Source: a virus. From it: a DNA stretch of 27,145 nt. The DNA lies in IMG/VR virus record IMGVR_UViG_3300020187_000170, positions 1-27,145 of that record, one strand, 5' to 3'. Both the position numbers and the translations under genes were made by a program. This document shows, piece by piece, positions 4,122-26,907 of this stretch. Under the pieces are notes generated by a model. That model saw only the letters and a program-made list of their open reading frames with translations, was not told the origin of the DNA and ran no database searches. Position 1 is the stretch's first letter, and each line of letters opens with the position of its first letter.

Positions 4122-4131
4122 GTGTAAACAA
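4122..4131 (+). promoter_or_regulatory. GTGTAAAC box before the clpC-like gene
   Basis: GTGTAAAC lies 10 bases before the ATG at 4132, or 16 bases before the in-frame ATG at 4138. It matches the start-proximal GTGTA box found before at least seven minus- or plus-strand genes in this window. There is no Shine-Dalgarno sequence. It is probably a promoter element; a role in translation is not excluded. Confidence 0.4.
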
Positions 4132-6603
4132 ATGAAGATGATACCAAAACCAAACTTCACTCCTAGAGCGCAGCAGGCCATAAATGAATCTAAAAAAATT
4201 GCCCAACAATATGGAAGCGAATACGTTACACTAGAGCACTTATTTTACGGAATGGTGAACCTAAAAGCCGGAATATTAAGTGAGATTTTATTTCTATTAC
4301 AAATAGATCAACAAGATTTGCTAAGCAAAGTAGAAGACTCATTCTTCGATTTTGAAACGGACGAACCTCAAACCTTCTCGCCCATTGATCATGACCCCGT
4401 ATACGACGAGCATTACCACCTAGTCTTAAAAGTTTCAGCATCAATCAGCGAAAAGCTTGGTCACGAATATGTGGGAATAGAGCATATGGTTTTAGCTTTG
4501 CTGAAGTATGAAGAATCTTCTATACCTGGGTTCTTTAAAAGTTTTAATGCTACAGAAAATGATATAATATCAGAAATCAGGGAATACCTACATATATCAA
4601 AAGAACCTTCAAAACCGAGCTTCAGAGAAAGGCGGCCTGCAGCTCCGCCCATACAAGATACAAAGTTGCAAAACTTAGAAAAATTTGCAACAAACTTAAA
4701 CTCAAAAGCTCAGCAGGGTAAATTCGACAACATAATAGGAAAAGAAAAAGAAATATATGATGTTTGCGAAATATTATGCAGAAGAACAAAAAATAACCCC
4801 GTGTTACTTGGCGACCCAGGCGTTGGGAAAACAGCGATAGTGGAAGGACTGGCACAGGATATTATGTCTGGCTCCGCGCCGGACTTTTTGCTCAATAAAA
4901 CAATATACTCTTTAGACCTAGGGTCCTTGATCGCAGGAACTAAATACAGAGGGCAGTTTGAGGAGAGATTGAAGGGAATTATCGACGAAGCAAGAAAGAA
5001 TAAGGATATAATACTGTTTGTGGACGAAATACACACTCTGGTCGGGGCAGGAAGCGCTGAGGGTAGCATGGACGCAGCGAATATAATGAAACCCTTACTC
5101 GCTAGAGGAGAATTGAGGTGCATAGGTGCGACAACGCTAGATGAGTATAAAAAAACTATACTCAAGGACGGAGCTCTGGATAGGCGCTTTCAATCAGTAA
5201 GGGTTATAGAGCCAACGAAAGAAGAAACTCGCAAAATAATGGACGGGATTAAAGAAAAATATGAAGAATTCCACAGCATATATTACCCAGAAGAAGTTCT
5301 AGACTTAATTACGGAGTTGAGCGCCAAATACATATTAGATAAAAATTTCCCAGACAAAGCTATAGATATACTAGACCAAGCGGGCTCAAAAGTTAAAATA
5401 AAAAACATACAAAGACCTCAATTAGCGAAAGATATTGAAAAAGAATTAGAGACACTAGCAATGAACGAAGCAAAGGTTCAGAAATTAGGCTTTAGTACTT
5501 CAGAAGTTGAGGATCGACAATTAGATTTGTTAGAAGAGTACGACAAGGTTATAACTTCTTGGGCAAAGAAAACTTCAGAGAATAAAATATCCGTATCGAA
5601 GAAAGATATATATGAAGTAATGTCTTCAAGGACAGGGGTTCCAATATCAGAAGTATCAAAGAAAGACTCTGAGAAAATGCTCGGACTGTTTAATAAGTTG
5701 AACGGTAAAATAGTCGGTCAGTCCACAGCTGTAGACAAGATATCAGAATGCATACTTCGGTCAAAATCAGGACTACAAGATGAAAGAAAGCCAATAGGTA
5801 GCTTTTTATTAGTTGGGGCAAGCGGCACGGGCAAAACTTATACAGCAAAATGTATCGCTGAATTTATATATGGAAGCAAGAGCAAATTAATACAGATAGA
5901 CATGAGCGAGTATTCTGAGAAAATATCGGCAAGCAGATTAATAGGGGCTTCTCCGGGTTATGTGGGATATGAAGACGGTGGAGATTTAACAGAAAAGGTA
6001 AGGAGGAACCCTTATAGCGTGGTCTTGTTCGATGAAATTGAAAAAGCTCACCCAGAAGTAATAAATATATTATTGCAAATTCTTGAAGAAGGTTTCGTCA
6101 CTGATAATTCGGGGAGAAAGGTTAACTTTAATAATTGTACAATCATACTGACTGGGAATATCGGTAGTGAGAAAGCTATAAAGCCCTCAATAGGTTTTGC
6201 TGCGGAAAGCGATACGCTTGTAGAGGAAAGGTTAAAAAAGGAATTAAAGTCTTTCTTTCGCCCTGAATTCCTGAATAGGCTTAATGAAATTATATTATTT
6301 AAAGATTTTCAAATTGAGGATTTAATAAAAATATCAAAACTCGAAATTCTAAATTTGTCTAAAAAACTAAAGGAAAAGAAAATCAAACTATCAATAACTC
6401 CCAAAGTATATAGCTTTATAGCGGAAAAAGCTTTTAACGAAAAGATGGGGGCAAGGCCAATTAAAAGGCTTATTCAAAGACATATAGAAAACGAGTTATC
6501 CAAGTTAATTCTCTCAAAAGGGATTTGTGCCGATCAAGAAATTAAGTTTTCCTTATGCAAATGTGAGATCAATTATTCGATCAAGGAAGCAAAGGCTTCG
6601 TAA
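4132..6603 (+). CDS. clpC: ClpC/ClpA-type AAA+ protein unfoldase with ClpP-binding loop
   Basis: An 823-residue class I Clp/Hsp100 ATPase. An N domain (FTPRAQQAI...YVTLEHLF) covers about 6-150. D1 has Walker A GDPGVGKT at 227-234 and Walker B with D298 and E299 in FVDEIHT. A short, UvrB-like middle region lies near 445-475. D2 has Walker A GASGTGKT at 562-569 and Walker B with D634 and E635 in LFDEIEKAHPE. An IGF tripeptide (687-689) sits where ClpA and ClpC carry the loop that docks ClpP; ClpB lacks it. The middle region is too short for ClpB. The length matches bacterial ClpC. It probably unfolds proteins for the host ClpP, because no protease subunit is seen here. It lies downstream of the polymerase gene with its own GTGTA box. 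Its 3' end overlaps the convergent gene by 23 bases. The start could be 4138. Confidence 0.92.
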   Translation: MKMIPKPNFTPRAQQAINESKKIAQQYGSEYVTLEHLFYGMVNLKAGILSEILFLLQIDQQDLLSKVEDSFFDFETDEPQTFSPIDHDPVYDEHYHLVLKVSASISEKLGHEYVGIEHMVLALLKYEESSIPGFFKSFNATENDIISEIREYLHISKEPSKPSFRERRPAAPPIQDTKLQNLEKFATNLNSKAQQGKFDNIIGKEKEIYDVCEILCRRTKNNPVLLGDPGVGKTAIVEGLAQDIMSGSAPDFLLNKTIYSLDLGSLIAGTKYRGQFEERLKGIIDEARKNKDIILFVDEIHTLVGAGSAEGSMDAANIMKPLLARGELRCIGATTLDEYKKTILKDGALDRRFQSVRVIEPTKEETRKIMDGIKEKYEEFHSIYYPEEVLDLITELSAKYILDKNFPDKAIDILDQAGSKVKIKNIQRPQLAKDIEKELETLAMNEAKVQKLGFSTSEVEDRQLDLLEEYDKVITSWAKKTSENKISVSKKDIYEVMSSRTGVPISEVSKKDSEKMLGLFNKLNGKIVGQSTAVDKISECILRSKSGLQDERKPIGSFLLVGASGTGKTYTAKCIAEFIYGSKSKLIQIDMSEYSEKISASRLIGASPGYVGYEDGGDLTEKVRRNPYSVVLFDEIEKAHPEVINILLQILEEGFVTDNSGRKVNFNNCTIILTGNIGSEKAIKPSIGFAAESDTLVEERLKKELKSFFRPEFLNRLNEIILFKDFQIEDLIKISKLEILNLSKKLKEKKIKLSITPKVYSFIAEKAFNEKMGARPIKRLIQRHIENELSKLILSKGICADQEIKFSLCKCEINYSIKEAKAS

Positions 6604-7099
6604 CAGGCTCTATGTCAGAGTCCTTAACTTGCATAGGGTCGTCAAACTTCTCGCCAGGGTTACTTCTTGGCTCTCCGCTGTTTTCATTAAATACTTTCAT
6701 GCACGCATGAAACCTGTCGGATTGCACTGGATATCTTTTTTTCATGTTTGCATCAAGAATACATCTAGTAACAAACTGATCTCCAGTCTCTTGGGACGAT
6801 GGCAAAGGGTAGCGTTTGTCCTGGTTTGATAAGAAATTATTTTTGTCTTGCTCAGACTCCTCAGGTTCTTGGCTCCTGTTTGGGAATATTTTTTGATACT
6901 CTTCGTACCTTGTAGCTTCATCAATAAGCTCGTAAGCTTTAGTTATATTCTTCTTTACCCAGTCCTCGATATTGCTATCTTCCTTAACCATGTCATACAT
7001 AATTCTGGCTTTTTTCCAAATGTGAAATAGTTCGGACTTAACCTTGTTATTGATGTTTCGCGAATCCGACATGGAATCGCCTTCAGATAATTGACTCAT
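6581..7099 (-). CDS. Conserved-looking phage protein of unknown function
   Basis: 172 residues, no recognised enzyme motif. Residues about 15-70 are helical (ELFHIWKKARIMYDMVKE...WVKKNITKAYELIDEA) and resemble a short helical module I recall in marine-phage structural proteins. Residues about 107-135 hold FVTRCILDANMKKRYP...RFHACMKVF, which recalls a Cys-containing 'F..RC..D......FP...R.A.C' motif in phage head-gene neighbourhoods. That similarity is from memory, not from a search. The tail is acidic and Pro-rich. A GTGTATAAG box lies 14 bases before the ATG. The gene converges on clpC and their 3' ends overlap by 23 bases with no terminator between. Confidence 0.6.
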   Translation of the reverse strand: MSQLSEGDSMSDSRNINNKVKSELFHIWKKARIMYDMVKEDSNIEDWVKKNITKAYELIDEATRYEEYQKIFPNRSQEPEESEQDKNNFLSNQDKRYPLPSSQETGDQFVTRCILDANMKKRYPVQSDRFHACMKVFNENSGEPRSNPGEKFDDPMQVKDSDIEPVTKPLLP

Positions 7100-7104
7100 A
7101 GATA

Positions 7105-7113
7105 CTTATACAC
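7105..7113 (-). promoter_or_regulatory. GTGTATAAG start-proximal box
   Basis: On the minus strand GTGTATAAG occupies 7113 to 7105, and five bases (TATCT) separate it from the ATG of the 172-residue gene. It contains a TATAAG -10-like hexamer. A transcript from it would be leaderless or nearly so. Confidence 0.5.
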
Positions 7114-7145
7114 TAAAAATAATAGAATTAAAACTTGCATTAAGA

Positions 7146-7859: not shown

Positions 7860-7861
7860 GC

Positions 7862-9550: not shown

Positions 9551-9553
9551 GGG

Positions 9554-10196: not shown

Positions 10197-11798
10197 TTAG
10201 TATGAAATTTTAACAGACTCCTTAAAAGTCTTCGCGAAGCGCTCTTTGAGAGAAGATCCCTCTGATGAGCTTTCGTTATTATTTACCAAAGCAGCGTCTT
10301 CAACTTCGATAGCTTCAAGAGCTTCTTCTAATTGATCAGCAATCTCAACTTCTTGAGTTTCTGACGCTTGAGCAACTTCTGCTTCTTTTTTTGTTTCACT
10401 GGAAGCTTCAACACTTTCAGTTAGTCGCTTTGAAACTTCTTGAGAAACTCTGTCCTCAAAAGCTTTTTTCTCTTCAGCGATAAAGTCTTTATTTTTATGC
10501 TTCCAGATTTTTGCGAGCTTTTCTTGGTATGCTGCAAAACCCTCTTCTGTTTCATCAATAGAAGTTAATTCGGAAGCGAGAATTTTTGAATCCTCAGAAT
10601 CTAATTCGTAAATCTCGTTCAACGATTCCATTCTTGAGTTGAATCTAATTTCCGCTTCACGATTAGCGTTTTCTTCTTCAAGTACTGATAATTTTTGTTG
10701 AGTGGATTTCAATTGGTTTTCAACTTCTGACATTTTTTCTTGTAGGGAACTTTGAGCCAGAACAGCTTCTTCTTTTTCAGCCTTTGCTTTGTCAAGGTCA
10801 GCAACATACTTTTCGCCTTTTTCGCGAATAGCTTCGATAAAAACTTTGGAAATGCTTGCGACAGCCTCCTCAGAGAAATCTTGTTTGCCAAGCTTTTCAT
10901 CTAAAGCTGCTCGGAATTCATTTATAATTTGATCTTTGTCCATAATATTAGTTGATTCTTTGATTGTTACATTTTCTAAAGTGGAATGGGAAGTTTTTTT
11001 ACTTTTTGTTATAATTTTATTTATAGGTTCTCTGCTCGTGTTTTCGTTCTCTGGAGAACTCTCACGTTCTGCAATAATACCTTTTACGTCTGCAGCAGGG
11101 TTAGAAGTGAATCCAATACCTAAAGGGTAAATATCTCCAATAATTAATCTATTAATCTTGCGGCCGTCCTGCAAGGCGCCCTTGCCTCCTAGAGATTTTA
11201 AATAAGGAGAATAAGCTTTCATTTCTTCTGGATCAGAAATAATAGAAGACTCATGGAGATCATCGCCTCCGACAGAAATTACATAATCATTAAATCCAAC
11301 CTCCCAGCTAGCAGAAACGGTTTCAAAGTAATCGCTATCTGCATCTGTGGAATTTACAACAAGATCAGAAAACTCTTTACTTGCTGTTTTATAAATTACT
11401 GCAGCTAATGAAATATTGTACGACCCCTCTTCAACCAAAGCTTCGTCGTCACTCATTAATTCTGAATTGCTACCGTATCTCGAGAAACCAGCAGAAACAA
11501 TGTGTCCAACAATATTATCTCTATCGTGCTCTATGTTTGTCGGTTTGTGCACAAAGTAATCCTTTATTGCTACTGCAGATTCACTGTTGATTCCATCGCC
11601 ATTCTTATTAAATTTGTTTACGACTGCCGCGTTGAACGCAACACCTAATAAATCTATATTCCTATCTAAGTCTATATCTTTAGGTATTAAAGGCCGTAAG
11701 GACTCGAGCGAAGCCTTGCTGATGTTTGATTCCTCGATATCACTGGAAGCAAAGACTACGCTATCAAAAGTGGCTGTATATTTATATTGATTATCCAT
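10197..11798 (-). CDS. Prohead protease fused to scaffold (core) protein
   Basis: 533 residues with two parts. Residues 1-245 look like a phage prohead protease. A candidate catalytic His is H91 in NIEHDRDNIVGHI, which resembles the 'HD....iG' motif of HK97-type S78 proteases. Candidate Ser residues S162 and S164 lie in ETVSASWEVGF. This region ends in a 'GIGFTSNPAADVKG' stretch. Residues 285-470 are Glu/Lys/Ala-rich coiled coil (DKAKAEKEEAVLAQSS...QLKSTQQKLSVLEEEN), which suits a scaffold cleaved during maturation. The C-terminus is acidic and ends in a basic helix (LKERFAKTFKESVKI), as in scaffolds that bind capsid protein. It follows TerL by 16 bases. M286 (ATG at 10943) marks the scaffold boundary and could be an internal start. 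The protease family is inferred. Confidence 0.78.
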   Translation of the reverse strand: MDNQYKYTATFDSVVFASSDIEESNISKASLESLRPLIPKDIDLDRNIDLLGVAFNAAVVNKFNKNGDGINSESAVAIKDYFVHKPTNIEHDRDNIVGHIVSAGFSRYGSNSELMSDDEALVEEGSYNISLAAVIYKTASKEFSDLVVNSTDADSDYFETVSASWEVGFNDYVISVGGDDLHESSIISDPEEMKAYSPYLKSLGGKGALQDGRKINRLIIGDIYPLGIGFTSNPAADVKGIIAERESSPENENTSREPINKIITKSKKTSHSTLENVTIKESTNIMDKDQIINEFRAALDEKLGKQDFSEEAVASISKVFIEAIREKGEKYVADLDKAKAEKEEAVLAQSSLQEKMSEVENQLKSTQQKLSVLEEENANREAEIRFNSRMESLNEIYELDSEDSKILASELTSIDETEEGFAAYQEKLAKIWKHKNKDFIAEEKKAFEDRVSQEVSKRLTESVEASSETKKEAEVAQASETQEVEIADQLEEALEAIEVEDAALVNNNESSSEGSSLKERFAKTFKESVKISY

Positions 11799-11814
11799 TA
11801 ATAAAAAAGTACAC

Positions 11815-13686
11815 CTAGTTTATAAACATGGGAGTAAAAGTGTAATTCACGCTTGCGGCCTTGATATTCATCATATCATAATACAATTTTATCATCCAAT
11901 TTCCAAGTACCAGAGCGGAATAACTATCTTTCCTCGCTTTCTCTGGGCCAGTTTGCCTTTTTAAGCTTGGGGGAAGATCAAAAGTTTGCGTACCACCTGC
12001 GGATGTAGAAATCTGGATTAGAGAACACTGAGTCTTGATTAAATTCATCATATCAAACTGATGCTCTACGAAATCAATCATTTTCGCCGCATCGGTTTGC
12101 TTATCTAAACTCTGAGAGGTTCTCAGGAATTTTAGATCCTTAATTGGTATTTTTTTCTTTCGCTGTTCGTTATAGGCATCATCAATAGCGCGGGATGCAA
12201 AGTATATTCTATTGTGGTCAAAATTTGCTTGCAGTAATTCGTTAGCAACTCGTATCCACTGGCTACTAGGTTTTCGCAAATAACAAATAGTCTTGTCCTC
12301 AAGATTATACTCTCTTTGCCCTTCTAGTAATTTCTTTTGATAATTTTCTATATCATCAAAGTTTGTATTTATGCATTTTATATTTAATTTGTTAGTCTTA
12401 AATAAACTGCTCTCGTTGCATGCGCTTATAAATTGAACTCCTCCATTATAATCTCCAACTATAGATACAATATTAAAATGAGTGAGTAAATAATAAAAAT
12501 AAAATATATGCTGTTTTAAATTTGTTCCCGATAAAGCATAACTATGAACAACCGTCCCGATTTTCTTCTTGTCCTCCAATTTTAGAACCATCATTGCGAA
12601 ATCATCACTACTTTCGCTTTCTGCCCAACTAGGATCGAACGCGAGAATATATTTTTCACCAATTTCCCCTTTAACTTCTATATTTGGTGTTGCTCCATCC
12701 TCAAGAGTGCACGAGGCCATCTTAGAAGTCTTGAAATACCCGCTACTATCATCTGTAAAAATAGAACCAAATTCTCGATCAAACTGACTCTGGCTCATTG
12801 TTGATTTAGCCTGCTCTAATAGATTTTTGTCATAAAGTTGCTTGGGAGCGCAGTCATAACTAAATTGCATTATCACACGATTAGCGTCAGAATGCTTCTT
12901 GCTGCCAGTATGAATTAATTGCTCGAATTGCTCATAAGCTTTATACATATATTCAAATTTGTAACTCGCAGAAGAGAGAGCTATCAACTTATTATTTGGC
13001 CAAAGATGACGATCGTCTTCAGCCATCTCTCCCTTCTTAATTGATTGGGTCTCTAGGTTATAAAGGGCCTCTCTCTGAGTCGGGTTCTCAACAACACTCA
13101 AGAACGGGATAATAACCTCATTATAAATACGTTCAGGCATTAAAGCAAACTCATCAATGATAATCCTATGAAAACGAAACCCTCGAAGCTTTTCTCCGTC
13201 CCCTAATGGCAACGCTCGTATCCGAGAACTTCCAATCTCGAGGAGCCATTCGTCATTACTTTTTGATTTGTGAGTTATGCATTGTTGCAGATAAGTGGCT
13301 CCAGGCTTTGCGGCAATATCCTCTATTTTTTTAAAAATCATTTTTGCCTGACGAAATGACTTGGACAATATACCTATCTCAACACCCTGATTCAGTATCG
13401 CGTCAAGATATGCGTAAATTGCAGTTGTAAAAGACTTGCTCATTCCTCGACTCCAGACGCCCATGAAATAATCGGTAGCAAACATAGACTTGATGGCCAT
13501 ATGTTGAAATGGAAAAAGTTGAACTCCGCTAACCAGGTCTGCGGTAAAAGTTATATTTTCTCTTAGAAATTGATACAATAATAGTTTAGCCTCCTTCTCC
13601 TCAATAAACCCTTTAACCTCAGAAAGTTTCTGATTAAAGTCGTTATGCTGATTCCGAGATAATTGATTTCCTGCTTCCCAAGTCAT
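11815..13686 (-). CDS. Terminase large subunit (DNA-packaging ATPase and nuclease)
   Basis: 623 residues. The ATPase has a deviant Walker A WSRGMSKS (residues 78-85), Walker B IIIDE (D178, E179) and a coupling motif LSSAS (237-241). The nuclease domain begins at ILAFDPSW (D351). A second acid is D412 in VGDYNGG. A third acid is probably D532 in QTDAAK, so the RNase H-like site seems complete. It cuts concatemeric DNA and pumps it into the prohead. The ATG overlaps the TAA of the nuclease gene upstream (TAATG), so the two are coupled. The protease-scaffold follows directly; the portal gene usually found there is absent. Length fits large-phage TerL. Confidence 0.93.
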   Translation of the reverse strand: MTWEAGNQLSRNQHNDFNQKLSEVKGFIEEKEAKLLLYQFLRENITFTADLVSGVQLFPFQHMAIKSMFATDYFMGVWSRGMSKSFTTAIYAYLDAILNQGVEIGILSKSFRQAKMIFKKIEDIAAKPGATYLQQCITHKSKSNDEWLLEIGSSRIRALPLGDGEKLRGFRFHRIIIDEFALMPERIYNEVIIPFLSVVENPTQREALYNLETQSIKKGEMAEDDRHLWPNNKLIALSSASYKFEYMYKAYEQFEQLIHTGSKKHSDANRVIMQFSYDCAPKQLYDKNLLEQAKSTMSQSQFDREFGSIFTDDSSGYFKTSKMASCTLEDGATPNIEVKGEIGEKYILAFDPSWAESESSDDFAMMVLKLEDKKKIGTVVHSYALSGTNLKQHIFYFYYLLTHFNIVSIVGDYNGGVQFISACNESSLFKTNKLNIKCINTNFDDIENYQKKLLEGQREYNLEDKTICYLRKPSSQWIRVANELLQANFDHNRIYFASRAIDDAYNEQRKKKIPIKDLKFLRTSQSLDKQTDAAKMIDFVEHQFDMMNLIKTQCSLIQISTSAGGTQTFDLPPSLKRQTGPEKARKDSYSALVLGNWMIKLYYDMMNIKAASVNYTFTPMFIN

Positions 13687-15283: not shown

Positions 15284-16325
15284 CTTCTTTAGAAATTCCA
15301 AGAACTCTTGCTTTCCAGTCGGGCATAGATTCTAGACGAGAAGCTTCCCCTCTTGCAGCCTTCTTTTGGAGTTCTGCGATCTTAATCATGACCTCTCTCT
15401 CTTCTTCCTCTTGAAATAATTGAACTAAAGATAGAATGCTTGCGTTTTGCTGCTGTTTTGAAGAAATTCTTTTGGATCTGTCGCCCTGTAGTTTTTGAAT
15501 AAGGGATTCCATTCTTTTTTCGCACTGATTATATTCTTCGCTTTTAGTTTTAAGTAACTCCGCCAACCTCACAGTTAAATCTTGTTGATCTTCTGCTTCA
15601 TCAAACATTTTATTTAATTTGTTAATTGCGCTTTGAATAATCTTTAAATGAATATAGTCCATGCAAACATTAATATATAAATTAATCTCGTCACTAGTCA
15701 AGTCAGGCTTGTCCCAAGTGGCTCTAACAAATTCAGCTTCAAATAGGTCTCTATCATCTTGACTATCGTAAGTATTAATAACCTGCAAGAACCGAGGGGA
15801 AGCTAGGAAGGCTCCAAGAGATTCTACACCCCTTCGCTCTTGCATGGTTAGCTTTTCTTCGTTAATTTTCGTCTGAGCGTAGTCGTTTATCTTTTTTATT
15901 ATTTTGCTTGAAGCTTTTGGTGGAGAATATTTTCTATTAACAGCGTTCTCTGACGGGGGAGTGGTTATAATATCCGAACTATCAACATAGCTTAGCACCG
16001 CCATATATTCCTTACAATTATGAGTTATCCTCTCAGACGGGAACATTACGGCGGCCACTTGAGAACAATTCATTCCATCAGATATTGATTGCTCTATAAA
16101 ATCTTTTTGATCAGCGGTCAACTCAATATCATCTTTTGGATAAATATGCTTTGTTTCGTACTCTATCTTGCTACTTACTAGAAAATTCCGAACAGCTCTC
16201 CCTTGCTTGCTTCTTCCATCGACTTTTTCTGCGTCCGGAAATGCCAACCTCGTCAACTCTGTTAAATCCAGAATCTTATCGGCATTCTGGAGGATGATTT
16301 CTTTCTGCGAATCGTTTAAGCCCAT
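15273..16325 (-). CDS. Probable small terminase subunit (two HTH repeats plus coiled coil)
   Basis: 350 residues. Two similar helix-turn-helix-like units occur: about 14-57 (LTELTRLAFPDAEK) and about 75-115 (CSQVAAVMFPSERI), each ending in a helix with a conserved 'FP' turn. Residues about 215-330 are long charged helices, probably coiled coil (Gln/Glu/Lys-rich). DNA-binding N-terminus plus oligomerising helices, and position two genes upstream of TerL, fit a small terminase subunit that recognises phage DNA. I could not assign a named family. It overlaps the sigma-like gene by ten bases and the beta-helix gene by about eleven. Confidence 0.6.
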   Translation of the reverse strand: MGLNDSQKEIILQNADKILDLTELTRLAFPDAEKVDGRSKQGRAVRNFLVSSKIEYETKHIYPKDDIELTADQKDFIEQSISDGMNCSQVAAVMFPSERITHNCKEYMAVLSYVDSSDIITTPPSENAVNRKYSPPKASSKIIKKINDYAQTKINEEKLTMQERRGVESLGAFLASPRFLQVINTYDSQDDRDLFEAEFVRATWDKPDLTSDEINLYINVCMDYIHLKIIQSAINKLNKMFDEAEDQQDLTVRLAELLKTKSEEYNQCEKRMESLIQKLQGDRSKRISSKQQQNASILSLVQLFQEEEEREVMIKIAELQKKAARGEASRLESMPDWKARVLGISKEDVI

Positions 16326-17059
16326 GGCGGTACAGCTTTTACTGCGATTATATCTTCTGTTTTGAGAATTTCTTGAGCCTTCTGTTTGAATACTTTTTTC
16401 AGATTTTTGATCTGCTTGTAGCCAGCCTTCCTTCCTTTTTCAGAAGTCTTGTAACCCATTTCTCTCGCGACCTCTTCTTCATCAATATGTTGAATGAATA
16501 ACAAATCGTACACTTGAAATTGTTTTGCAGAAAGCTGCTTTTTCATGTGTTCGTTAAGCTTCTCGTAAGCGTCAACAATATTAAAATTATGATCCTCCAT
16601 AGACCCAACTTCGAGACTATGATTCTCTAAAGCTAGTGCCATTTTTATTCCGTATGCGGGCTTTTTAGTTCTTTCCCATTTTGCGTATAATGGGCATGAT
16701 GAATCTTGAAGTCCGGTTTTCGTAAACCCACATAAAGAAGATTCCCCTCCATCTTTCATAGCGCAAGATTGATTAAAGGGGCAGTTTAAGCAAGGCCTAA
16801 CGAAATTGCTATAATTATTGCGCAAGATGTTTTTCATTTGATTCGTGACGATCTTATTAACCCAAGGCTTCAAAGATCTGCTTTGATCCCATTGGTCCCA
16901 TTTTTTAAATATGTGAGCCTTAATTATTTGCTCGACATCTTCGAAATCAAACCAAGCCAACGAGTCTAAAAACCACTTACCTCTTCTTTTCTTTATCTCA
17001 ACGTTTATTTCTTGAGATTTATCTTCGTAAGAAAAGTTAGTTTTTTTTGGGTCTGCCAC
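16316..17059 (-). CDS. Phage sigma-like transcription factor with a cysteine cluster
   Basis: About 247 residues from a GTG at 17059. A region resembling sigma70 region 2 is FDFEDVEQIIKAHIFKKWDQ...LKPWVNKIVTNQMKNILR. A region-4-like HTH follows near the C-terminus (LSAKQFQVYDLLFI...EEVAREMGYK..EKGRKAGYKQI). Between them are five Cys (PCLNCPFNQSC, SLCGF, SSCPLY) that probably bind Zn or an Fe-S cluster. A longer version starts at a TTG at 17119 and overlaps the zinc-ribbon gene by 83 bases; the GTG cuts this to 23. Region 3 is absent, as in ECF sigmas and T4 gp55-like factors. It probably redirects host RNA polymerase to phage promoters, perhaps the GTGTA class. Sigma homology is moderate. Confidence 0.72.
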   Translation of the reverse strand: MADPKKTNFSYEDKSQEINVEIKKRRGKWFLDSLAWFDFEDVEQIIKAHIFKKWDQWDQSRSLKPWVNKIVTNQMKNILRNNYSNFVRPCLNCPFNQSCAMKDGGESSLCGFTKTGLQDSSCPLYAKWERTKKPAYGIKMALALENHSLEVGSMEDHNFNIVDAYEKLNEHMKKQLSAKQFQVYDLLFIQHIDEEEVAREMGYKTSEKGRKAGYKQIKNLKKVFKQKAQEILKTEDIIAVKAVPPWA

Positions 17060-17399
17060 GATTCTTTGATTTTTTTGTTTGAGCTTTAGCTTCTTCCTGT
17101 ATTTTCTCGACCTCTCCAAGAGGTATGAGATCTTTTAAATTAAACTTATTTCTATCTCTCTCTATTGAGTACGATAATTTAGAAATGTTTGGCACTTGAT
17201 ACACATCCGTTCCGTCAGGGTCATGAACTTCTCGTTGAATAGAGGCTCTTGAGCTTGAGCTCACCATTCGCTCGCCCGCAGGTTTTTGTTTTAACGCGGA
17301 TGATATGTTTAAGGTTTCTCCGCAGCCGCCACAAAATTTCGGCGGCTGAGTGGAATACATATTTTTAAAACCACAATGAGGACAATAAGAAAAGGCCAT
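17037..17399 (-). CDS. Zinc-ribbon protein with AT-hook-like tail
   Basis: 120 residues. The N-terminus has a four-Cys ribbon: YCPHCGFKNMY then KFCGGCGETL (C-x2-C, 14 residues, C-x2-C). The middle is polar and poorly ordered. The end, AKAQTKKSKNRGRPKK, contains the RGRP core of an AT-hook, which binds the minor groove of AT-rich DNA. It lies just upstream of the sigma-like gene and overlaps it, so the two are probably made together; a role as a DNA- or polymerase-binding partner is inferred. A TTGATA-16-TATAAT promoter ends eight bases before the ATG. Confidence 0.68.
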   Translation of the reverse strand: MAFSYCPHCGFKNMYSTQPPKFCGGCGETLNISSALKQKPAGERMVSSSSRASIQREVHDPDGTDVYQVPNISKLSYSIERDRNKFNLKDLIPLGEVEKIQEEAKAQTKKSKNRGRPKKN

Positions 17400-17407: not shown

Positions 17408-17435
17408 ATTATAACCTTAAAAAAAATTATATCAA
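17408..17435 (-). promoter_or_regulatory. Probable promoter of the zinc-ribbon/sigma/terminase operon
   Basis: On the minus strand, TTGATA (17435 to 17430), a 16-base spacer and TATAAT (17413 to 17408) lie eight bases before the ATG at 17399. The promoter overlaps the end of the GAF gene. The resulting leader would be about zero to two bases. Confidence 0.6.
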
Positions 17436-18677: not shown

Positions 18678-18686
18678 AATATACAC
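18678..18686 (-). promoter_or_regulatory. GTGTATATT box of the holin-like operon
   Basis: GTGTATATT runs from 18686 to 18678 on the minus strand, five bases before the ATG at 18672. It is one half of a compact divergent promoter pair. Confidence 0.5.
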
Positions 18687-18715: not shown

Positions 18716-18724
18716 GTGTATAAT
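18716..18724 (+). promoter_or_regulatory. GTGTATAAT box of the antitoxin-like gene
   Basis: GTGTATAAT, with a perfect TATAAT (18719-18724), lies six bases before the ATG at 18731. It faces away from the box at 18678-18686 across a 58-base intergenic gap. Confidence 0.55.
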
Positions 18725-18922: not shown

Positions 18923-20298
18923 TTGAACATTAACCATTTTCGTTCGTTATTTGAATAAAAATACGGAAATAGCTCTGGAGATGTCCATAGCCAGCCTTCG
19001 TCGGCAATAAAGAACCAGACACCAGATCCCGAAGCAGCCCCGTATACCCATTTTAATGTCTCGTGGTATACCCATCCATTGTCCAGCGCCATAAAGTGTC
19101 CAAACCAACAAGACTTGCGCCATTCACCTCGAACGATTGGCATGCATTCATACCATTTCTTGACTTCGGAGGCTGGATCAAATTTATATTCTATTGTTTG
19201 GATTAATTTATTTTTAGAGTCTTTTCTTACCCAACCCCCACGATCGTCAGTTTTGTAATCAGTATTTAAAGCAGTGTCCCAAGCAGTTAAAGTTAAATTA
19301 GAATCTTTGCTCAAATTTAAATCTTTTAAAATTAAGTATTTTTTATTTGATATAGGCTCTCCATTCAACTTCCAAACAACATCAATAATATCTTCATCTA
19401 TAACATTAACTTCAAGAATATCAGAGCCATTAACTGTGATATTATTATCAGAAGCTGAATCAATAACTTTGCAAAAATCATAAATAGATAATATCATATG
19501 TTCTCTTGCTACTGCATCATAAAAAGCATTTTGTACATTTTGATTGTTCATGATTGTATTGTGAGAGGATGGTCTATAATATAAACTAGACCCTGGGTAG
19601 TCTTTACCTTTGTATTGCATATGCGGGCCATCAATTGCTATTTTACTTATTGGATCAACATAGCCCTGCCAGCGAACCCACTTGTTCATGCTAAAAGTGA
19701 ACCTGCCTTCGCGCCCCGTAAAAATATCGGAATCCTCTTTAAGGATAATGTTTGCAGGGTATCGACCTGTATAATTGTATCTCATCGCGTATTCATCAGA
19801 TAAATGTCCCAGCGTGTGCCCCATTTCATGAGCAAACAATCTGAATGTTGAGCTTGTATATTCCTTAATAAAACAAAGTCTTGCTGCTGCATATGCGCCA
19901 CCTTGGTATGACCCTTTTAAGCTTTCAATATTTTCTCTTAATAAAACTCCAATATCTCGACCAGAAAACGATGCATTTAAGTCTGCAAAGTATCGTGCCA
20001 TTAAAATGTCATTATTCCACCATTTAGACATATTGGTTTTAGGTAAATCATCAAACAGTTCGGAAGACTTTACAAGATGCACATTGAAGAAATTTTTATA
20101 TCTTTTAAATAACGGATAAATCGAACAAGTATCCTTCCAAATGTCACCCACTTTTTTCTCGGCATTTATTACCTCCTCTGTTTTCACTAAAAAAACAATA
20201 TCACACCTATTTTCAGGCATGCCAGAATTAAAAATAAATTTATAATCGTTACCAATTAAACCCGATACAGTACTTAACAATAATATCCAATATTTCAT
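18919..20298 (-). CDS. Secreted M64-family zinc metalloprotease
   Basis: 459 residues. A signal peptide (MKYWILLLSTVSGLIG) precedes a region like the M64 (IgA-peptidase-like) family: RCDIVFLVKTEE near 31-42, then the zinc site HEMGHTLGHLSDEY (H157, E158, H161; D168 probably the third ligand), and YRPSSHNTIMNN (241-252), matching the family 'YRP...S.M' segment. Residues 280-370 are a beta-rich spacer. The end is Trp/Gly-rich (about 385-459: WFGHFMALDNGWVYHE, GWLWTSPELFPYFY), like C-terminal repeats I recall from Verrucomicrobiota secreted proteins. It cuts proteins outside the cytoplasm. It has its own strong promoter and looks like an accessory gene between tail and lysis genes. Confidence 0.82.
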   Translation of the reverse strand: MKYWILLLSTVSGLIGNDYKFIFNSGMPENRCDIVFLVKTEEVINAEKKVGDIWKDTCSIYPLFKRYKNFFNVHLVKSSELFDDLPKTNMSKWWNNDILMARYFADLNASFSGRDIGVLLRENIESLKGSYQGGAYAAARLCFIKEYTSSTFRLFAHEMGHTLGHLSDEYAMRYNYTGRYPANIILKEDSDIFTGREGRFTFSMNKWVRWQGYVDPISKIAIDGPHMQYKGKDYPGSSLYYRPSSHNTIMNNQNVQNAFYDAVAREHMILSIYDFCKVIDSASDNNITVNGSDILEVNVIDEDIIDVVWKLNGEPISNKKYLILKDLNLSKDSNLTLTAWDTALNTDYKTDDRGGWVRKDSKNKLIQTIEYKFDPASEVKKWYECMPIVRGEWRKSCWFGHFMALDNGWVYHETLKWVYGAASGSGVWFFIADEGWLWTSPELFPYFYSNNERKWLMFN

Positions 20299-20305: not shown

Positions 20306-20334
20306 ATTATATCAAATCTAAACCATCACGTCAA
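20306..20334 (-). promoter_or_regulatory. Sigma70-type, leaderless-geometry promoter of the M64 gene
   Basis: TTGACG (20334 to 20329), a 17-base spacer and TATAAT (20311 to 20306) precede the ATG at 20298 by seven bases. It has the same geometry as the promoter at 130-158. It suggests independent, host-type transcription of this accessory gene. Confidence 0.8.
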
Positions 20335-20345: not shown

Positions 20346-20954
20346 TCAATAAGCCCACGCATAAATCTGGAAACCTAATTGATCAACAACGTTTGCTGTA
20401 CATCTAAATGCTGCGTGGTTATCTGGAGTCAGAAAAATACTGCCATTAGAGTGCGGTATCTTGTTGGCTACAGAAGTGTCGTTAAATTTAAATGAGTTTA
20501 ATCGAGGATATTGCATATTCTCAAATACAAAATTCTTCTGGCCGCTTTCTAGTTTATTCCAACCTCTTTCGTCAAGATACTCAACTCCTTCAGAATGATC
20601 TATAAGAATTATAATGTTTTTTGCTTCTGAAGGTATGCGCTTTTGACCTATATCTAAATCTGCGACCTGGACGTCTATATAGATATATTCGTCTACAGCT
20701 TCTGGAGTATCAAGGTCTGAATCCAATCCATAATCGGTGAATCTGTAGGTTTTATAATATAAATTGCTTGGTACAACTTTATTCCACTCATTTAACTCTC
20801 CAACATAATAAAAGCTTGCAGCAGCAAGTAATAAATTAAAATCAATCACCTTGAGTTGATTAGAGTCAGCTTTTTGTATCAGAATTAAATCCTGGTCGGG
20901 CGCAAAATCTTCCGGCGCGAGGCGAGGTAAAGTACCAATGCTTTTTGTTTTCAT
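20346..20954 (-). CDS. Tail-associated protein with N-terminal adaptor (paralogue 1)
   Basis: 202 residues. The first about 40 residues (IGTLPRLAPEDFAPDQDLILIQKADSN then DFNLLLAAAS) match the starts of the two genes upstream. A variable beta-rich body with 'EWNKVVPSNLYYKTYRFTDYG' follows, and the end is LGFQIYAWAY, similar to its neighbours. This shared adaptor plus different body pattern is typical of phage tail fibres or receptor-binding proteins. It lies 24 bases after the upstream paralogue's stop, with no ribosome site or GTGTA box, so it probably rides on the upstream transcript. Confidence 0.6.
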   Translation of the reverse strand: MKTKSIGTLPRLAPEDFAPDQDLILIQKADSNQLKVIDFNLLLAAASFYYVGELNEWNKVVPSNLYYKTYRFTDYGLDSDLDTPEAVDEYIYIDVQVADLDIGQKRIPSEAKNIIILIDHSEGVEYLDERGWNKLESGQKNFVFENMQYPRLNSFKFNDTSVANKIPHSNGSIFLTPDNHAAFRCTANVVDQLGFQIYAWAY

Positions 20955-20978
20955 TTTTTTATTGAGTTGCGAGAATTT

Positions 20979-21827
20979 TTATCCGAAATTAGAATAAGCT
21001 AAAATCTGAAAAGAAGTTAATTCACTTACTGAAGCGTCGGGCCTTTTTGCAAGAGAAAATGTTACCTGATCAATTGGATCAATATTATTTTGATTTTTAT
21101 TGCTTGGAATACGGTCGCGAGGAAAAGATAATGGACCCAACTCAGCATTTCTATCTGTCATTTTTCTTAGCCACTCGTTGGTTGTGAGCGCTGTCCTCCC
21201 GATAAATATATATGTCAGAATTGCGCTGGTAGTTTCTTTGTCGCTTTGATGCATTGGCAACTGAGTCACATAATAGTTCCCAGGATCATTCGGTGCATTA
21301 TTGAACAATCGAGGTGTTGCATCATTACGCACGACCACGTCTTGAATGTTCTCTAAAGGAAAAATTGCCACACTTTTTTCATTTAGCAAAGGGGTCACTA
21401 CTTCCCCGGAAGTTCTGAATCTTGAAGAAAACGCAAGCCCTTGACCAACAGCTTTAACAAGAACTCTTCGGACACCGCTCGGAATATATAAAGAACCGTC
21501 TGAAATGCCCGCAATTTTAACCCGAATTGTTTGGGTATTGTTGTCCATTGTGAGAGGGTTTGCGGCAGACAATATTCTTTCGTTATTGACGGTGGCTTGC
21601 TTGCCGCTACTTATAGTTACGTCTTGAATTAGCGCTTCTTGAAGGTAGGTTTTTGGTATAAAATTCCACGCAGTTTTTGCGCTTGGTCGATCCCGAGTAT
21701 TAAGAATTTCTTGAATATCATACAAGGTTGTATAGTGAGTTGATCCATTTTTCTCGATTAATATTCGATCTTTGTCTGGCTCTAAATCATTCACGCTCAA
21801 TATCTTGTCTAAATTATCTATTTTCAT
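20979..21827 (-). CDS. Tail-associated protein with N-terminal adaptor (paralogue 2)
   Basis: 282 residues from the ATG at 21827, two bases after the upstream paralogue's stop. A longer frame to 21893 adds 22 residues inside that gene and would displace the conserved start. The adaptor is LDKILSVNDLEPDKDRILIEKNG plus YDIQEIL. The body has 'TAWNFIPKTYLQEALI' and beta-rich segments, and the C-terminus (FQILAYSNFG) resembles paralogues 1 and 3. Probable virion fibre or receptor-binding protein; its ligand cannot be told from the sequence. Confidence 0.6.
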   Translation of the reverse strand: MKIDNLDKILSVNDLEPDKDRILIEKNGSTHYTTLYDIQEILNTRDRPSAKTAWNFIPKTYLQEALIQDVTISSGKQATVNNERILSAANPLTMDNNTQTIRVKIAGISDGSLYIPSGVRRVLVKAVGQGLAFSSRFRTSGEVVTPLLNEKSVAIFPLENIQDVVVRNDATPRLFNNAPNDPGNYYVTQLPMHQSDKETTSAILTYIFIGRTALTTNEWLRKMTDRNAELGPLSFPRDRIPSNKNQNNIDPIDQVTFSLAKRPDASVSELTSFQILAYSNFG

Positions 21828-21828
21828 A

Positions 21829-22671
21829 TCAAGCCCAGGCATGCATTTTAACATAAAACAGTTCAGAAGATGCAACTCTATTGCGGTTGGCATCGCTATC
21901 GCTTATCGTTGCGGGGATTACGCCGTTAGGTATTTGTGAAGCGGCTGTTTTGGCAGTAAGGCCCAATCCCGGGATGTTCCGCGAAACTTGACCCCAACCA
22001 CCATCATTCCTCCTTGGGGGAGACGCACCTTTAAAATAGCAGGGGTAAGTTGGAGTACTAGTTTTGAAGGTAATAAAAGTTCCTTCTTCCAGATTAATGT
22101 CGTCAATACCATGCTTAACAGAAGCTGGTTTGCCTACATGCTCTACAATAAATAAAGACTCAGAGCAGTGCCCAGAAGCTCGAGAGTCGCCAACGTCGTA
22201 TTCTCCTAAAAGAAAGTAATTCCAACCCCAATCTTTTGAATCTAAAACTCTACCTGCTCTGTCGCAAATAACCTCAGAGCTTCTTGCTCGAGCAAGAGAG
22301 ACTTCGCAATTTCTTGCGTACGCGGACATTAATATGCTGCGAGCAATAACCGGTACGCTCGAAGTAGTTTTTCCGCTACCAACGACTTTTTGAGACCAAG
22401 AAACTTTAAAGTCTTTAATTAGAGGGTTCCCTGTTAGTCCTGACAGCTTCTGGTGGATCATGTTGTACGGAATCAAATATTCAGGCTCAGCAAGCCAGTT
22501 CCAAGACCAAGCTCTGGTTCCTGGCAGGTTGGCCGAGGGGGAATTTATCAAGTCAAAAAATTTCGCTCGATAAGTTCCTCCAGAAGCTTTTTGAATCAAA
22601 AAGTTATCGACTGTAGGTAGAAAGTCAGCTTTTGAGAGTTTACCGAGTTCATGAACTTGCTTGTTTGACAT
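21829..22671 (-). CDS. Tail-associated protein with N-terminal adaptor (paralogue 3)
   Basis: 280 residues. The adaptor is ELGKLSKADFLPTVDNFLIQKAS followed by YRAKFFDLI. Next comes PGTRAWSWNWLAEPEYLIPY, whose 'PGTR...WNWL' is echoed by the 100-residue protein at 23464. The body is rich in Ser, Arg and Cys (YARNCEVSLARARSSEVICD), and the end is FYVKMHAWA. It leads the three-gene paralogue run and has a GTGTATAAT box five bases from its ATG. Likely a tail tip or fibre component. Confidence 0.62.
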   Translation of the reverse strand: MSNKQVHELGKLSKADFLPTVDNFLIQKASGGTYRAKFFDLINSPSANLPGTRAWSWNWLAEPEYLIPYNMIHQKLSGLTGNPLIKDFKVSWSQKVVGSGKTTSSVPVIARSILMSAYARNCEVSLARARSSEVICDRAGRVLDSKDWGWNYFLLGEYDVGDSRASGHCSESLFIVEHVGKPASVKHGIDDINLEEGTFITFKTSTPTYPCYFKGASPPRRNDGGWGQVSRNIPGLGLTAKTAASQIPNGVIPATISDSDANRNRVASSELFYVKMHAWA

Positions 22672-22676: not shown

Positions 22677-22685
22677 ATTATACAC
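22677..22685 (-). promoter_or_regulatory. GTGTATAAT box of the three-paralogue fibre operon
   Basis: GTGTATAAT (22685 to 22677, minus strand) contains a perfect TATAAT and lies five bases before the ATG at 22671. Confidence 0.55.
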
Positions 22686-23057: not shown

Positions 23058-23065
23058 AATTAAAT

Positions 23066-23071: not shown

Positions 23072-23079
23072 ATATACAT

Positions 23080-23406: not shown

Positions 23407-23433
23407 GTTTTTAAAAATTTATATTTCATAAAG

Positions 23434-23466
23434 ACCAACGGTGATTAATTTGCCGTTGGTTTTTTA
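23434..23466 (+). terminator. Terminator between convergent genes
   Basis: ACCAACGG (23434-23441) pairs with CCGTTGGT (23453-23460) around an 11-base loop, followed by a T run from 23460 to 23465. The stop of the minus-strand gene overlaps the T run, so the hairpin lies beyond that gene and could slow its transcript as well. Confidence 0.8.
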
Positions 23467-23766
23467 TTTTAATTTACTTATAATGTAATTTAAATTACAG
23501 CATGTTATTCTATCTACTGAAATATCTGCAGCTTTATCTGTTTTTAAAGTAAATCCAGATTCTTGTTCTGTATCTATTATTAAATAACTTATAAAGTCGT
23601 GGGCACCAAACCCCTTGAGCCAGTTCCAATACATGCTACGGGTACCTGGCGGGCATTCTAGAAGCACATCCTCGAACTTGTATGTTCGGGCAAATAATGT
23701 AACATCGCGAAAACAAGAGATTTCGCTTGGAGGTTCGGTCAAGCAAGATTCTATAATCAATTTCAT
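23464..23766 (-). CDS. Small protein resembling the adaptor region of the fibre paralogues
   Basis: 100 residues. 'RTYKFEDVLLECPPGTRSMYWNWL' (about residues 28-51, in two parts here) parallels 'YRAKFFDLI...LPGTRAWSWNWL' of the protein at 21829-22671, with the same PGTR-x3-WNWL core. The rest (GFTLKTDKAADISVDRITCCNLNYI) is beta-rich. It may be a cut-down paralogue, or a chaperone or cap for a fibre. A GTGTAAT box lies nine bases before its ATG. The similarity is short and by eye. Confidence 0.5.
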   Translation of the reverse strand: MKLIIESCLTEPPSEISCFRDVTLFARTYKFEDVLLECPPGTRSMYWNWLKGFGAHDFISYLIIDTEQESGFTLKTDKAADISVDRITCCNLNYIISKLK

Positions 23767-23775
23767 GTAAAATAA

Positions 23776-23782
23776 ATTACAC
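23776..23782 (-). promoter_or_regulatory. GTGTAAT start-proximal box
   Basis: GTGTAAT (23782 to 23776, minus strand) is nine bases before the ATG at 23766; its G is 16 bases from the start codon. Confidence 0.4.
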
Positions 23783-23793
23783 GAAAAAATGTT

Positions 23794-24003: not shown

Positions 24004-24008
24004 AATTA

Positions 24009-25340
24009 TTATTTAGTTGAAGGGGTTGCTATTAACAAAGTTAATCCAAAAGTTCCTGATTGAACATAATCAGCAATCGAAACTGCCTCTGCATTGTATA
24101 AGGATGTTCCAGGAATTCCTGGCGACGAAGTACTCCCGACGCTATCACTTTCATTGCTTCCAAAATCTTTAGTATCGGACATAGAAATAGATGCGTATTG
24201 TCTAGCATGAATCGCAGAATTGGCAATATAGATTGTTACTCCATTAGCTTTTGTAAAAACTGGGCCGTTGGCTTCAAAAATAGAACTTTGTGTGACAGAC
24301 ACTGTCGACAATTTTATATCTGCGTCTGTTGTAAAACAAATATTTGCATTAAAAGTCCATTCGCTGGAGAGGCCGCTAGAGGCATAGATATGTCCGTTAT
24401 ACTCAATTATGCGCATTACACCACCAGCTGCTGAATCGAGAATACTACTGAATCCTCCCGCATAACTTGCAAGATCCAATTCAAGAGCATTTAATGCGAA
24501 GCCTTGAATCATCGGATCCGCGGCCTGTAAGCCTGTTCCAAATCCATGAGCAACTCTAACCGTCATTTGTCCACCATCTCTAGCTTCTAGAATTTTAGGC
24601 ATCGGATAGGTGCTTGAGCCAGAAATTTTCATTTTGACCCCAATAACATGAGTGTTACCCCTATTCTCTGACCGAAAGACACCATACATCCCTCCATTGT
24701 GATTAACATCTTGAATGTCAAATTTGATGCCCTGAAAGCCCAATGATCCGCTTCCGTTCCACAGAATCATATTATTCGTCAATGCATTTTGTCCAGATAT
24801 TGTAACTGTATTTCTTGATCCTACATTGTCAGTGGTAAATGGAAGGTTCTGATCAATTGCTTGCAGTCCATAATATTGACTTCCCACGACATCAATTGTG
24901 CAAGTAAAATTTCGCATATCATAATGATTATAATGTGAGGATCTTATTTCAGTAATATCTGTTTCTACAACTATTTTAACACTCGCACCTGCTGAAAAAT
25001 TGTTTTGTGCGAAATGTAGTGCATCCCTTAAGGTACCAAACTTTAAATCTGCAATTTTCCAGACCGCATTAATCGAGCCGTCAGTATAAGTCATGTCTTG
25101 TGTATGTTCGTGCGCTGTTCCATTACTATTAACAAGCAAAACAAAAAACGCTGCTTCGGCAGAGACTCTTAAAGCTCCTTCTGAATTTTTACTCAACCCT
25201 CCACCTATTTGCACAGGAGCTACGATATCAGACAACTCTGATAATTTTACTTTTGCATTTAGCCCATTATGAGCGATGACTATTTCAGAATCCTTATTTG
25301 GATTTGAATTTGGAGTTAGATCTGATATTTTTGTTCCCAT
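24009..25340 (-). CDS. Beta-helix tail fibre or tailspike-like protein
   Basis: 443 residues. The start, MGTKISDLTPNSNPNKDSEIVIAHNG then KVKLSELSDI, is the 'KISDLT....d.E.vIA..G.n.kv.l..L' module common at the N-terminus of phage fibre proteins, and is distantly like the adaptor of the paralogues at 20346-22671. Residues about 110-350 have beta-rung sequence with periodic Gly and aliphatic residues (NNMILWNGSGSLGFQGIKFD, MRIIEYNGHIYASSG), as in pectin-lyase-like folds. The C-terminus is small and hydrophobic. It probably binds or cuts a surface glycan; no catalytic residues are recognised. A GTGTAAC box precedes it. Confidence 0.7.
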   Translation of the reverse strand: MGTKISDLTPNSNPNKDSEIVIAHNGLNAKVKLSELSDIVAPVQIGGGLSKNSEGALRVSAEAAFFVLLVNSNGTAHEHTQDMTYTDGSINAVWKIADLKFGTLRDALHFAQNNFSAGASVKIVVETDITEIRSSHYNHYDMRNFTCTIDVVGSQYYGLQAIDQNLPFTTDNVGSRNTVTISGQNALTNNMILWNGSGSLGFQGIKFDIQDVNHNGGMYGVFRSENRGNTHVIGVKMKISGSSTYPMPKILEARDGGQMTVRVAHGFGTGLQAADPMIQGFALNALELDLASYAGGFSSILDSAAGGVMRIIEYNGHIYASSGLSSEWTFNANICFTTDADIKLSTVSVTQSSIFEANGPVFTKANGVTIYIANSAIHARQYASISMSDTKDFGSNESDSVGSTSSPGIPGTSLYNAEAVSIADYVQSGTFGLTLLIATPSTK

Positions 25341-25347
25341 GATTATT

Positions 25348-25354
25348 GTTACAC
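25348..25354 (-). promoter_or_regulatory. GTGTAAC start-proximal box
   Basis: GTGTAAC (25354 to 25348, minus strand) lies seven bases before the ATG at 25340; its G is 14 bases from the start codon. A TATAAT further upstream is an alternative promoter element. Confidence 0.4.
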
Positions 25355-25425
25355 TTTGATTATATATTTGTGATTATGCCTTTTAATTGTTTTGAAAAGT
25401 ATTTCTGTATGAGTATGTGTCTATA

Positions 25426-26892
25426 TTAAGTCTTTATTATGTAATTTAAAATGATGGTTGGCTGGACATTGTTGTGCGCTCCGCCTCCCCCTGTTGAGCT
25501 AGATGTGGCTGTCCCTGTAACTGGACCATCCTCGATGGCCGTTGAACCTCCAGCGGTCACATTAGTTGTTCGATTATATGTGTGATCGTGAGCCGGCATT
25601 TCTGCAATACTGAGGGTATGCGTTTTTGTGCTATGGGCATTTGTAGCGCCAATTGCATCCGCTGATCCACTTAATAAAGTCCCGCCATGCCCAGCAATTA
25701 CTCGGCCTTGAAGGTCGGGGATATTGAAAGTGGTAGAACCATCTCCTTGGCCATAAGGGGAATCTGCTCCACCAAGTGCGGCGTAAAGAGTTGCGTAAGT
25801 AGTTCTGCTCTTGGCTGCACCATCGCATAGTAGATATCCAGTCGGAGCAGATGAGCCCGCATAAGGCACAATAGATGCTGTTGGCGCAAGAGATTCCGTA
25901 CTGCTTGAACTTATTGAGCCACCAAGTTCCAACCAAGGACTTGCAAGTTCTAAATCTAAATCCTGAACACCGTCTTCTGTGGAAATTGTACTGTTTCCAT
26001 CTTCTGTTGATAATTCTAACCCGATATATATCTTGAGAGAATTTCCGTCAAACCATGTATCACCAGATTTTGGATCTGTAGGCTCTGTTCCGATCGAAAC
26101 CGATTGATTGCCTTGATTGATAACTTCGTTCATCTTGGATCTTATTTGCTCGATTGAAGTTTGTCGACTTGATAAAGTATTAGAAGCTGAATCGACAATA
26201 GAAATTATATTGGTTCCTTGTAAAAATAGCCCATTTGAAGGCTGGTAACTCACTGATTTAGCTTCGTTAGACGTGTAACTCAATAACGTGTTACCGTACA
26301 AAGATCCAGCTACTGCAAAATGAGATTCGCCAAATTCCGCCTTGCTTCTGCTTTGTACAGGTTCGGCGGCAGCACCCCAAACATAAACCCAAACATTTGC
26401 AGGGTTATTGTAATAATCTAATAGATCGGGTTGCGAGTTAATATAATTTTCATAATCATCCATTCTTGCAACAATCGTTCCATCTAAATTATTCAACTGC
26501 ATTGGATAACCGTACACTCGAGGTGTAATCAAGCGGTATTCATCACTAAAGCCTATTTCTACTATAACGCTTTGAAGATTTGTATAAGAGGGCTGGGTAT
26601 AATGTTGCAAACCAGCAGGGTCTACAGCTCGATTAAGCATAATTGAATATGCCTTGGTTATAGATGCTATTGTCGGCACTGCTCCTAATTCCTCGTTCGT
26701 AAAAGATACCATAGAACGATATTCATATATCGCTATTGTATCTCCTGCGGGAATTATTATTTCTGGATTTTCTCCCAAATAAATCGGCTCATTTTCAACT
26801 CGCATTACACCAGCGGATATGGAGTAACCGCTGCGCCAAAGATAATGAGTTCGGGCGTTGCCGATTTCTATTGTATATATATGATTTGCCAT
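25426..26892 (-). CDS. Tail collar fibre protein with DUF4214-like segment
   Basis: 488 residues. Residues about 75-120 (ITKAYSIMLNRAVDPAGLQHYTQ) match the DUF4214-type 'Y..iL.R..D..Gl.yw' motif, and a second piece (YENYINSQPDLLDYY) follows. The middle has the fibre phrase 'PKSGDTWFDGNSLKIY'. From about 343, SIVPYAGSSAPTGYLLCDGAAKS through NIPDLQGRVIAG is a phage tail-collar domain. The C-terminal 150 residues are Gly/Ser/Thr-rich with His (EMPAHDHTY) and end VQPTIILNYIIKT, the usual collar-fibre tip. It is a virion tail protein likely to contact the cell surface. A GTGTAAT box precedes its ATG. Confidence 0.82.
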   Translation of the reverse strand: MANHIYTIEIGNARTHYLWRSGYSISAGVMRVENEPIYLGENPEIIIPAGDTIAIYEYRSMVSFTNEELGAVPTIASITKAYSIMLNRAVDPAGLQHYTQPSYTNLQSVIVEIGFSDEYRLITPRVYGYPMQLNNLDGTIVARMDDYENYINSQPDLLDYYNNPANVWVYVWGAAAEPVQSRSKAEFGESHFAVAGSLYGNTLLSYTSNEAKSVSYQPSNGLFLQGTNIISIVDSASNTLSSRQTSIEQIRSKMNEVINQGNQSVSIGTEPTDPKSGDTWFDGNSLKIYIGLELSTEDGNSTISTEDGVQDLDLELASPWLELGGSISSSSTESLAPTASIVPYAGSSAPTGYLLCDGAAKSRTTYATLYAALGGADSPYGQGDGSTTFNIPDLQGRVIAGHGGTLLSGSADAIGATNAHSTKTHTLSIAEMPAHDHTYNRTTNVTAGGSTAIEDGPVTGTATSSSTGGGGAHNNVQPTIILNYIIKT

Positions 26893-26900
26893 CTGAAAGG

Positions 26901-26907
26901 ATTACAC
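26901..26907 (-). promoter_or_regulatory. GTGTAAT box of the collar-fibre gene
   Basis: GTGTAAT (26907 to 26901, minus strand) lies eight bases before the ATG at 26892, its G 15 bases from the start. No Shine-Dalgarno sequence is present. Confidence 0.45.

Follow-up and report, generated by a model that had tools for sequence, protein, structure and literature searches.

GTGTA boxes in the window

The stretch analysed here, called the window, is a linear virus record of 27,145 bases (~37% GC) that encodes DNA polymerase III alpha genes, a clpC-like gene, terminase, cement and tail genes, and a sigma-like gene. A sequence-only reading of this DNA had pointed to nine genes with a GTGTA box shortly before the start codon, and all nine boxes (9/9) were found. 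They are listed below with distances counted from the start of the box to the A of the ATG; the fractions of orthologs with a box are underestimates, because the gene caller takes the first ATG.

4122..4126, plus strand: GTGTA box, 16 nt to the ATG at 4138 of the clpC-like gene; box in 27/27 orthologs
7109..7113, minus strand: GTGTA box GTGTATAAG, 14 nt to gene 6581-7099; 29/35 orthologs
11810..11814, minus strand: GTGTA box GTGTACTTT, 16 nt to the protease/scaffold gene 10197-11798
18682..18686, minus strand: GTGTA box GTGTATATT, 14 nt to gene 18238-18672; 33/50 orthologs
18716..18720, plus strand: GTGTA box GTGTATAAT, 15 nt to the ATG at 18731; 33/53 orthologs plus 7 leadered
22681..22685, minus strand: GTGTA box GTGTATAAT, 14 nt to gene 21829-22671
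23778..23782, minus strand: GTGTA box GTGTAATTT, 16 nt to gene 23464-23766; 4/20 orthologs
25350..25354, minus strand: GTGTA box GTGTAACAA, 14 nt to gene 24009-25340
26903..26907, minus strand: GTGTA box GTGTAATCC, 15 nt to the tail-collar gene 25426-26892 (Phage Tail Collar domain)

The boxes at 18682..18686 and 18716..18720 form the two sides of one divergent pair (18672/18731), and the box at 11810..11814 is placed in the gap past the terminase stop. The spacing had been described as 13-16 nt; it is indeed tight, with actual offsets of 14-16 nt. Shine-Dalgarno (SD) sites, said to be missing at the boxed genes, were matched at 0/9 of them. The two sites that had been ranked as looser forms, before the clpC-like and protease/scaffold genes, are both backed by conservation: every one of the 27 clpC-like orthologs has a box just upstream of its start, as do 72/115 protease/scaffold orthologs (65 leaderless and 7 leadered, with a sigma70-type promoter at none).

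Several other features of the window were noted. Neighbouring genes at 20346-22671 and 24009-25340 have a common N-terminal motif, L..L...DF..D..LIQK or similar; some genes with such a motif have their own GTGTA box, and so do similar genes in a related contig, G001. On the minus strand, 26950-27145 encodes a Pro-Glu repeat stretch and then a hydrophobic C-terminus, interrupted by the window end. The gene at 13686-14603, which abuts the terminase gene start, has an ERCC4-type nuclease domain.

The box is a positional signal common to a phage lineage

GTGTA occurs 24 times in the window compared with 25 expected, yet at offsets of 10-16 nt it precedes 9 of the 30 gene starts, where 0.09 would be expected (binomial P = 3.5e-16), bearing out the claim that its spacing is too regular for chance. 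With no overall excess and this excess at gene starts, the signal is purely positional. None of the 30 starts has the box 17-40 nt upstream. At 13-16 nt it is found at 8/30 gene starts vs 3/779 other ATGs, and one of these three is the second ATG of the clpC-like gene, 4138.

Searches with three proteins, the sigma, the terminase and the putative capsid protein, gathered hundreds of related contigs. Across 195 related loci, the box lies at -17..-14 in 12.7% of 3260 gene starts vs 0.2% of 93,781 other ATGs; a motif equally common inside genes had been named as the outcome that would speak against the proposal, and the frequencies differ widely in the other direction. In a set of 92 non-redundant loci from the same family (1.53 Mb), GTGTA is the top enriched 5-mer in the interval -18..-9 before the ATG and is present at 238/1520 starts vs 5.3 expected, with a peak at -14/-15. 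All sigma clades tested, down to ~40% sigma identity, show strong enrichment, which also extends over the contigs G001 (211 kb) and G004 (180 kb of its 184 kb). The signal is thus shared throughout a lineage of large uncultured phages. In annotated phages no terminase match exceeded 27% identity, and the capsid and sigma proteins were without a match.

Six unrelated control phages had the box at 1/294 starts. On the host side, it was found at 0/300 starts in chromosome samples of four MAGs holding binned relatives, which may not be the hosts; the group assigned differs among the four MAG contigs that hold relatives, which makes binning an unreliable guide to the host. These samples replaced contigs C1 and C2 of the MAG G012 as a control, which were dropped since C1, with a copy of the second phage sigma gene, is itself probably phage. 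In G012, named Halobacteriovorax, contig C4 and probably also C1 belong to a phage of the GTGTA lineage, with the host by binning uncertain.

Two probable leaderless promoter classes divide the genes

The genes with a box at -17..-14 have the sequence features of leaderless genes: a -10-like element adjoins the start codon (peak at -14/-15), and an SD site is present in 0/206. Where the box is further upstream (~-36..-25), an SD site lies between box and ATG in 53% of genes. The same phages have a second leaderless class, of the sigma70 type, with the layout CTTGACA-17-TAnnnT-6/7-ATG. The two classes are in equal register: the T of GTG-TA falls at -11/-12, and -12 is also the commonest position for the sigma70-type -10 to begin. 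In 956 kb we counted 98 sigma70-type leaderless genes vs 92 GTGTA genes and a further 46 leadered GTGTA genes. Sigma70-type promoters in the window include:

130..158, plus strand: sigma70-type leaderless promoter TTGACA-17-TAAAAT-7-ATG, before the DNA polymerase PHP gene at 166
17408..17435, minus strand: sigma70-type promoter TTGATA-16-TATAAT-8-ATG, before the Zn-ribbon gene heading the sigma operon
20306..20334, minus strand: sigma70-type leaderless promoter TTGACG-17-TATAAT-7-ATG, before gene 18919-20298

The division follows gene content. Replication genes are preceded by the CTTGACA class, and GTGTA stands mostly before virion genes. Orthologs of the DNA polymerase PHP gene are sigma70-type in 13/17 cases and have GTGTA in none. 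In G004 the polymerase and ribonucleotide reductase genes have sigma70-type promoters too; the Zn-ribbon gene heading the sigma operon is of this type in 58/124 orthologs. Ortholog clusters that mix the two classes number 5/64, compared with 38.5 in shuffles. Judged from this gene content, the GTGTA genes are probably late, with some boxes preceding genes that are not obviously so (the clpC-like gene and a kinase gene in G004). The remaining genes with a gap of at least 30 nt showed no sign of a third promoter class. In a few distant relatives (L289, L290), a TTGA hexamer and a GTGTA box are combined in one promoter before the Zn-ribbon gene and sigma operon, a pairing that suggests later self-activation of the operon.

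Candidate readers of the box

Two sigma-like proteins of these phages are candidates for reading the box, one encoded in the window and one outside it; they are listed together with the first gene of the operon of the window's factor:

16316..17059, minus strand: sigma-like factor, ECF-like; Pfam Sigma70_r2 8e-5, PHROG 1740 5.7e-6
17037..17399, minus strand: zinc-ribbon-like protein, first gene of the sigma operon, overlapping the sigma gene start
L255:13960-14586 and L260:3746-4339 (also in L514, L516, L517 and L518): second sigma-like protein (PHROG 351)

The sigma homology of the window's factor is weak, its Pfam match lying just below the cut-off; the top Foldseek matches of its model (pLDDT 66) are ECF sigmas at E ~1e-3. 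Of 26 related records, 25 have a homolog and the one that does not is an 11.6-kb fragment; identity among the homologs drops to 41%. The sequence-only reading had nominated this protein as the reader; it is plausible in that role, given its ECF-like character, PHROG match and conservation, and we favour it, though the assignment is not unique because the second factor is conserved as well.

That second protein (~200 aa) has a sigma70-like region 2 with 'KFSTYLxNExKW', and its gene comes after a nucleotide-kinase-like gene. It would be an unlikely reader in place of the window's factor. It is conserved in 20 of the 26 records searched, in several clades, and in 3/7 phages checked its operon has a leaderless sigma70-type promoter (TTGAC-17-TAnnnT), as would fit a regulator made before the late genes. 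Against it, its best PHROG is not that of phiEco32 gp36, the one that the window's factor matches, and with 31-61% identity to the first row it is rather divergent for a protein that would read an invariant box, though the window's factor itself drops to 41%. Among the records, none was found to carry one of the two factors and clearly lack the other, and records without the second may be fragments, so presence and absence cannot pick the reader. The favoured candidate stays the protein at 16316-17059.

A third, clearly ECF-type sigma gene is present in two phages (L515:7986-8504 and L519:7954-8472; PHROG 1740 at 6e-22 and 3e-9). A search of 11 large records for RNA polymerase beta/beta'-type domains found none; the search for single-subunit RNA polymerases (PF00940) is uninformative, as the control had no match either.

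Make-up of the box and comparison with known promoters

The sequence around the box was compared in 88 independent GTGTA promoters, one per ortholog cluster. The five bases of the box are essentially invariant, and no single-mismatch variant is enriched 2-fold or more. The five bases that follow are A/T-rich with G nearly absent, and A is found at +9 in 68%. No conserved upstream element that could serve as a -35 was found in the 88 promoters; TTGAC is upstream in 1/88, and the box thus departs from the -10/-35 layout of sigma70.

Phage T4 late promoters (TATAAATA) consist of a -35-less -10-type element read by the small phage sigma gp55 on host core polymerase. The kind of element is alike here but the sequence is different, GTGTA and not the TATAAATA box. 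A closer parallel in sequence is phiEco32, whose gp36 recognises tAATGTATAtA, a motif that needs no -35 and is placed 6-8 nt ahead of the transcript start; in phiEco32 and 7-11, sigma70-type promoters serve early genes and phage promoters the middle and late ones (PMC4281155, PMC4331800). The window's sigma matches the same PHROG as gp36, 1740 (5.7e-6, and 1.9e-45 for gp36), and the two motifs have in common a TGTA core, nearly equal register and the lack of a -35. However, the invariant core here is GTGTA, not AATGTATA; the motif differs from tAATGTATAtA in that the base before TGTA is always G and never A, and GTGTA is used at many sites per genome, predicted to be mostly leaderless. Direct profile comparison (hhalign) of the window's sigma with gp36 detected no similarity. 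Because the motif differs and no direct sigma similarity was found, we do not file GTGTA as a phiEco32-type promoter.

Leaderless bacterial genes carry TAnnnT at about -12 (Zheng et al., 2011, PMC3160421), which puts their -10 in the same register relative to the start codon; the phages described here have in addition a phage-specific GTGTA class with no -35. Thermus phage P23-45 has middle and late promoters of the extended -10 class, which host sigma-A uses independently of a -35 (PMC7403470). They share -35 independence with the GTGTA promoters but rely on host sigma-A rather than a phage sigma. By this precedent GTGTA could be a strict extended -10 promoter of the host primary sigma, perhaps with the help of a phage protein that stops the -35 from being recognised, as in P23-45, and several boxes do read GTGTATAAT. 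We regard this as distinctly unlikely: TG abuts TA (GTG-TA) where TGn-TATAAT would be expected, neither the last T nor the remainder of the hexamer is conserved, no mismatch is tolerated in GTGTA, and the box was missing at all 300 starts of the MAG chromosome samples, with the true host uncertain. A phage-specific promoter read by a phage sigma would fit these features, and its mechanism would work like phiEco32 or T4 late transcription with leaderless starts added. In the literature searched, no earlier description was found of GTGTATAAT, or of GTGTA with leaderless phage promoters.

The box marks the starts of transcription units

The distribution of the box over gene junctions points to transcription. 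It marks the starts of transcription units, both sides of divergent pairs included: for divergent pairs less than 150 bp apart, a leaderless box is present in 37% and a leadered one in another 10%, and for same-strand gaps of 5-30 nt a box is present in 35%. At overlapping or abutting genes it occurs in 6/548 (1.1%), a depletion for part of which coding constraint may account. GTGTA might instead act in the mRNA, as a signal for RNA processing or for translation, as its fixed distance to the start codon might suggest. This is highly improbable: the box is found on either side of close divergent pairs, a place where promoters have to be, it is nearly absent at overlapping genes, and in one class of genes it is far upstream, the SD site falling between box and ATG. 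From these patterns we take the box to be a promoter element rather than a ribosome signal. The proposal of a phage-specific -10-type promoter giving leaderless mRNA has strong support from where the box lies, its unit-start context, the lack of SD sites, conservation and absence from controls; its further suggestion, the sigma-like factor at 16316-17059 as reader, is plausible, with more than one candidate to fill the role.

A model for late transcription

GTGTA appears to be a real and conserved promoter that is probably late and leaderless. Proceeding from the observed position, strictness, context and conservation of the box and the promoter class of each gene, we propose that GTGTA and the A/T-rich, nearly G-free stretch after it are the -10-like core of a phage-specific promoter without a -35, which would drive mostly late (virion) genes of the lineage. 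Most transcripts would begin with the A of the ATG and so be leaderless; in the minority of genes with the box 25-36 nt upstream a leader would be made, often with an SD site. The reader would most likely be host core RNA polymerase with a phage-encoded sigma, for which the protein at 16316-17059 is the first candidate. With the sigma operon itself expressed from a sigma70-type promoter, the order would run from host sigma to phage sigma to late genes. We put the probability of this model as a whole, a phage-specific, -35-less late promoter that is mostly leaderless and read by a phage sigma, at about 0.74.

A wider version, about as probable as its negation, is a two-class, mostly leaderless programme throughout the lineage, in which replication genes have host sigma70-type promoters and virion genes have invariant GTGTA promoters without a -35, used through a divergent phage sigma whose cysteine cluster is conserved. 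If so, virion proteins would be made from leaderless mRNA regardless of the SD usage of the host. The GTGTA signal itself amounts to a promoter grammar for a widespread uncultured phage group, obtained from sequence alone, and makes two questions testable: how a box of five bases is read by a phage sigma in the absence of a -35, and how virion synthesis is kept up from leaderless mRNA.

Prediction of start codons

By the model, GTGTA could be used to predict which genes are likely late, where operons begin and which start codon is the true one; for the clpC-like gene it points to the second ATG. In clpC-like orthologs the box is mostly 10 nt from the first ATG and 16 nt from the second in-frame ATG, an arrangement to which the 16-nt spacing to ATG 4138, proposed from the window's sequence, conforms; 4138 is probably the true start. 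Poor conservation of this box in one ortholog count was an artefact of first-ATG gene calling. The gene, called at 4132-6603, encodes a full-length clpC-like AAA+ unfoldase with a Clp_N domain.
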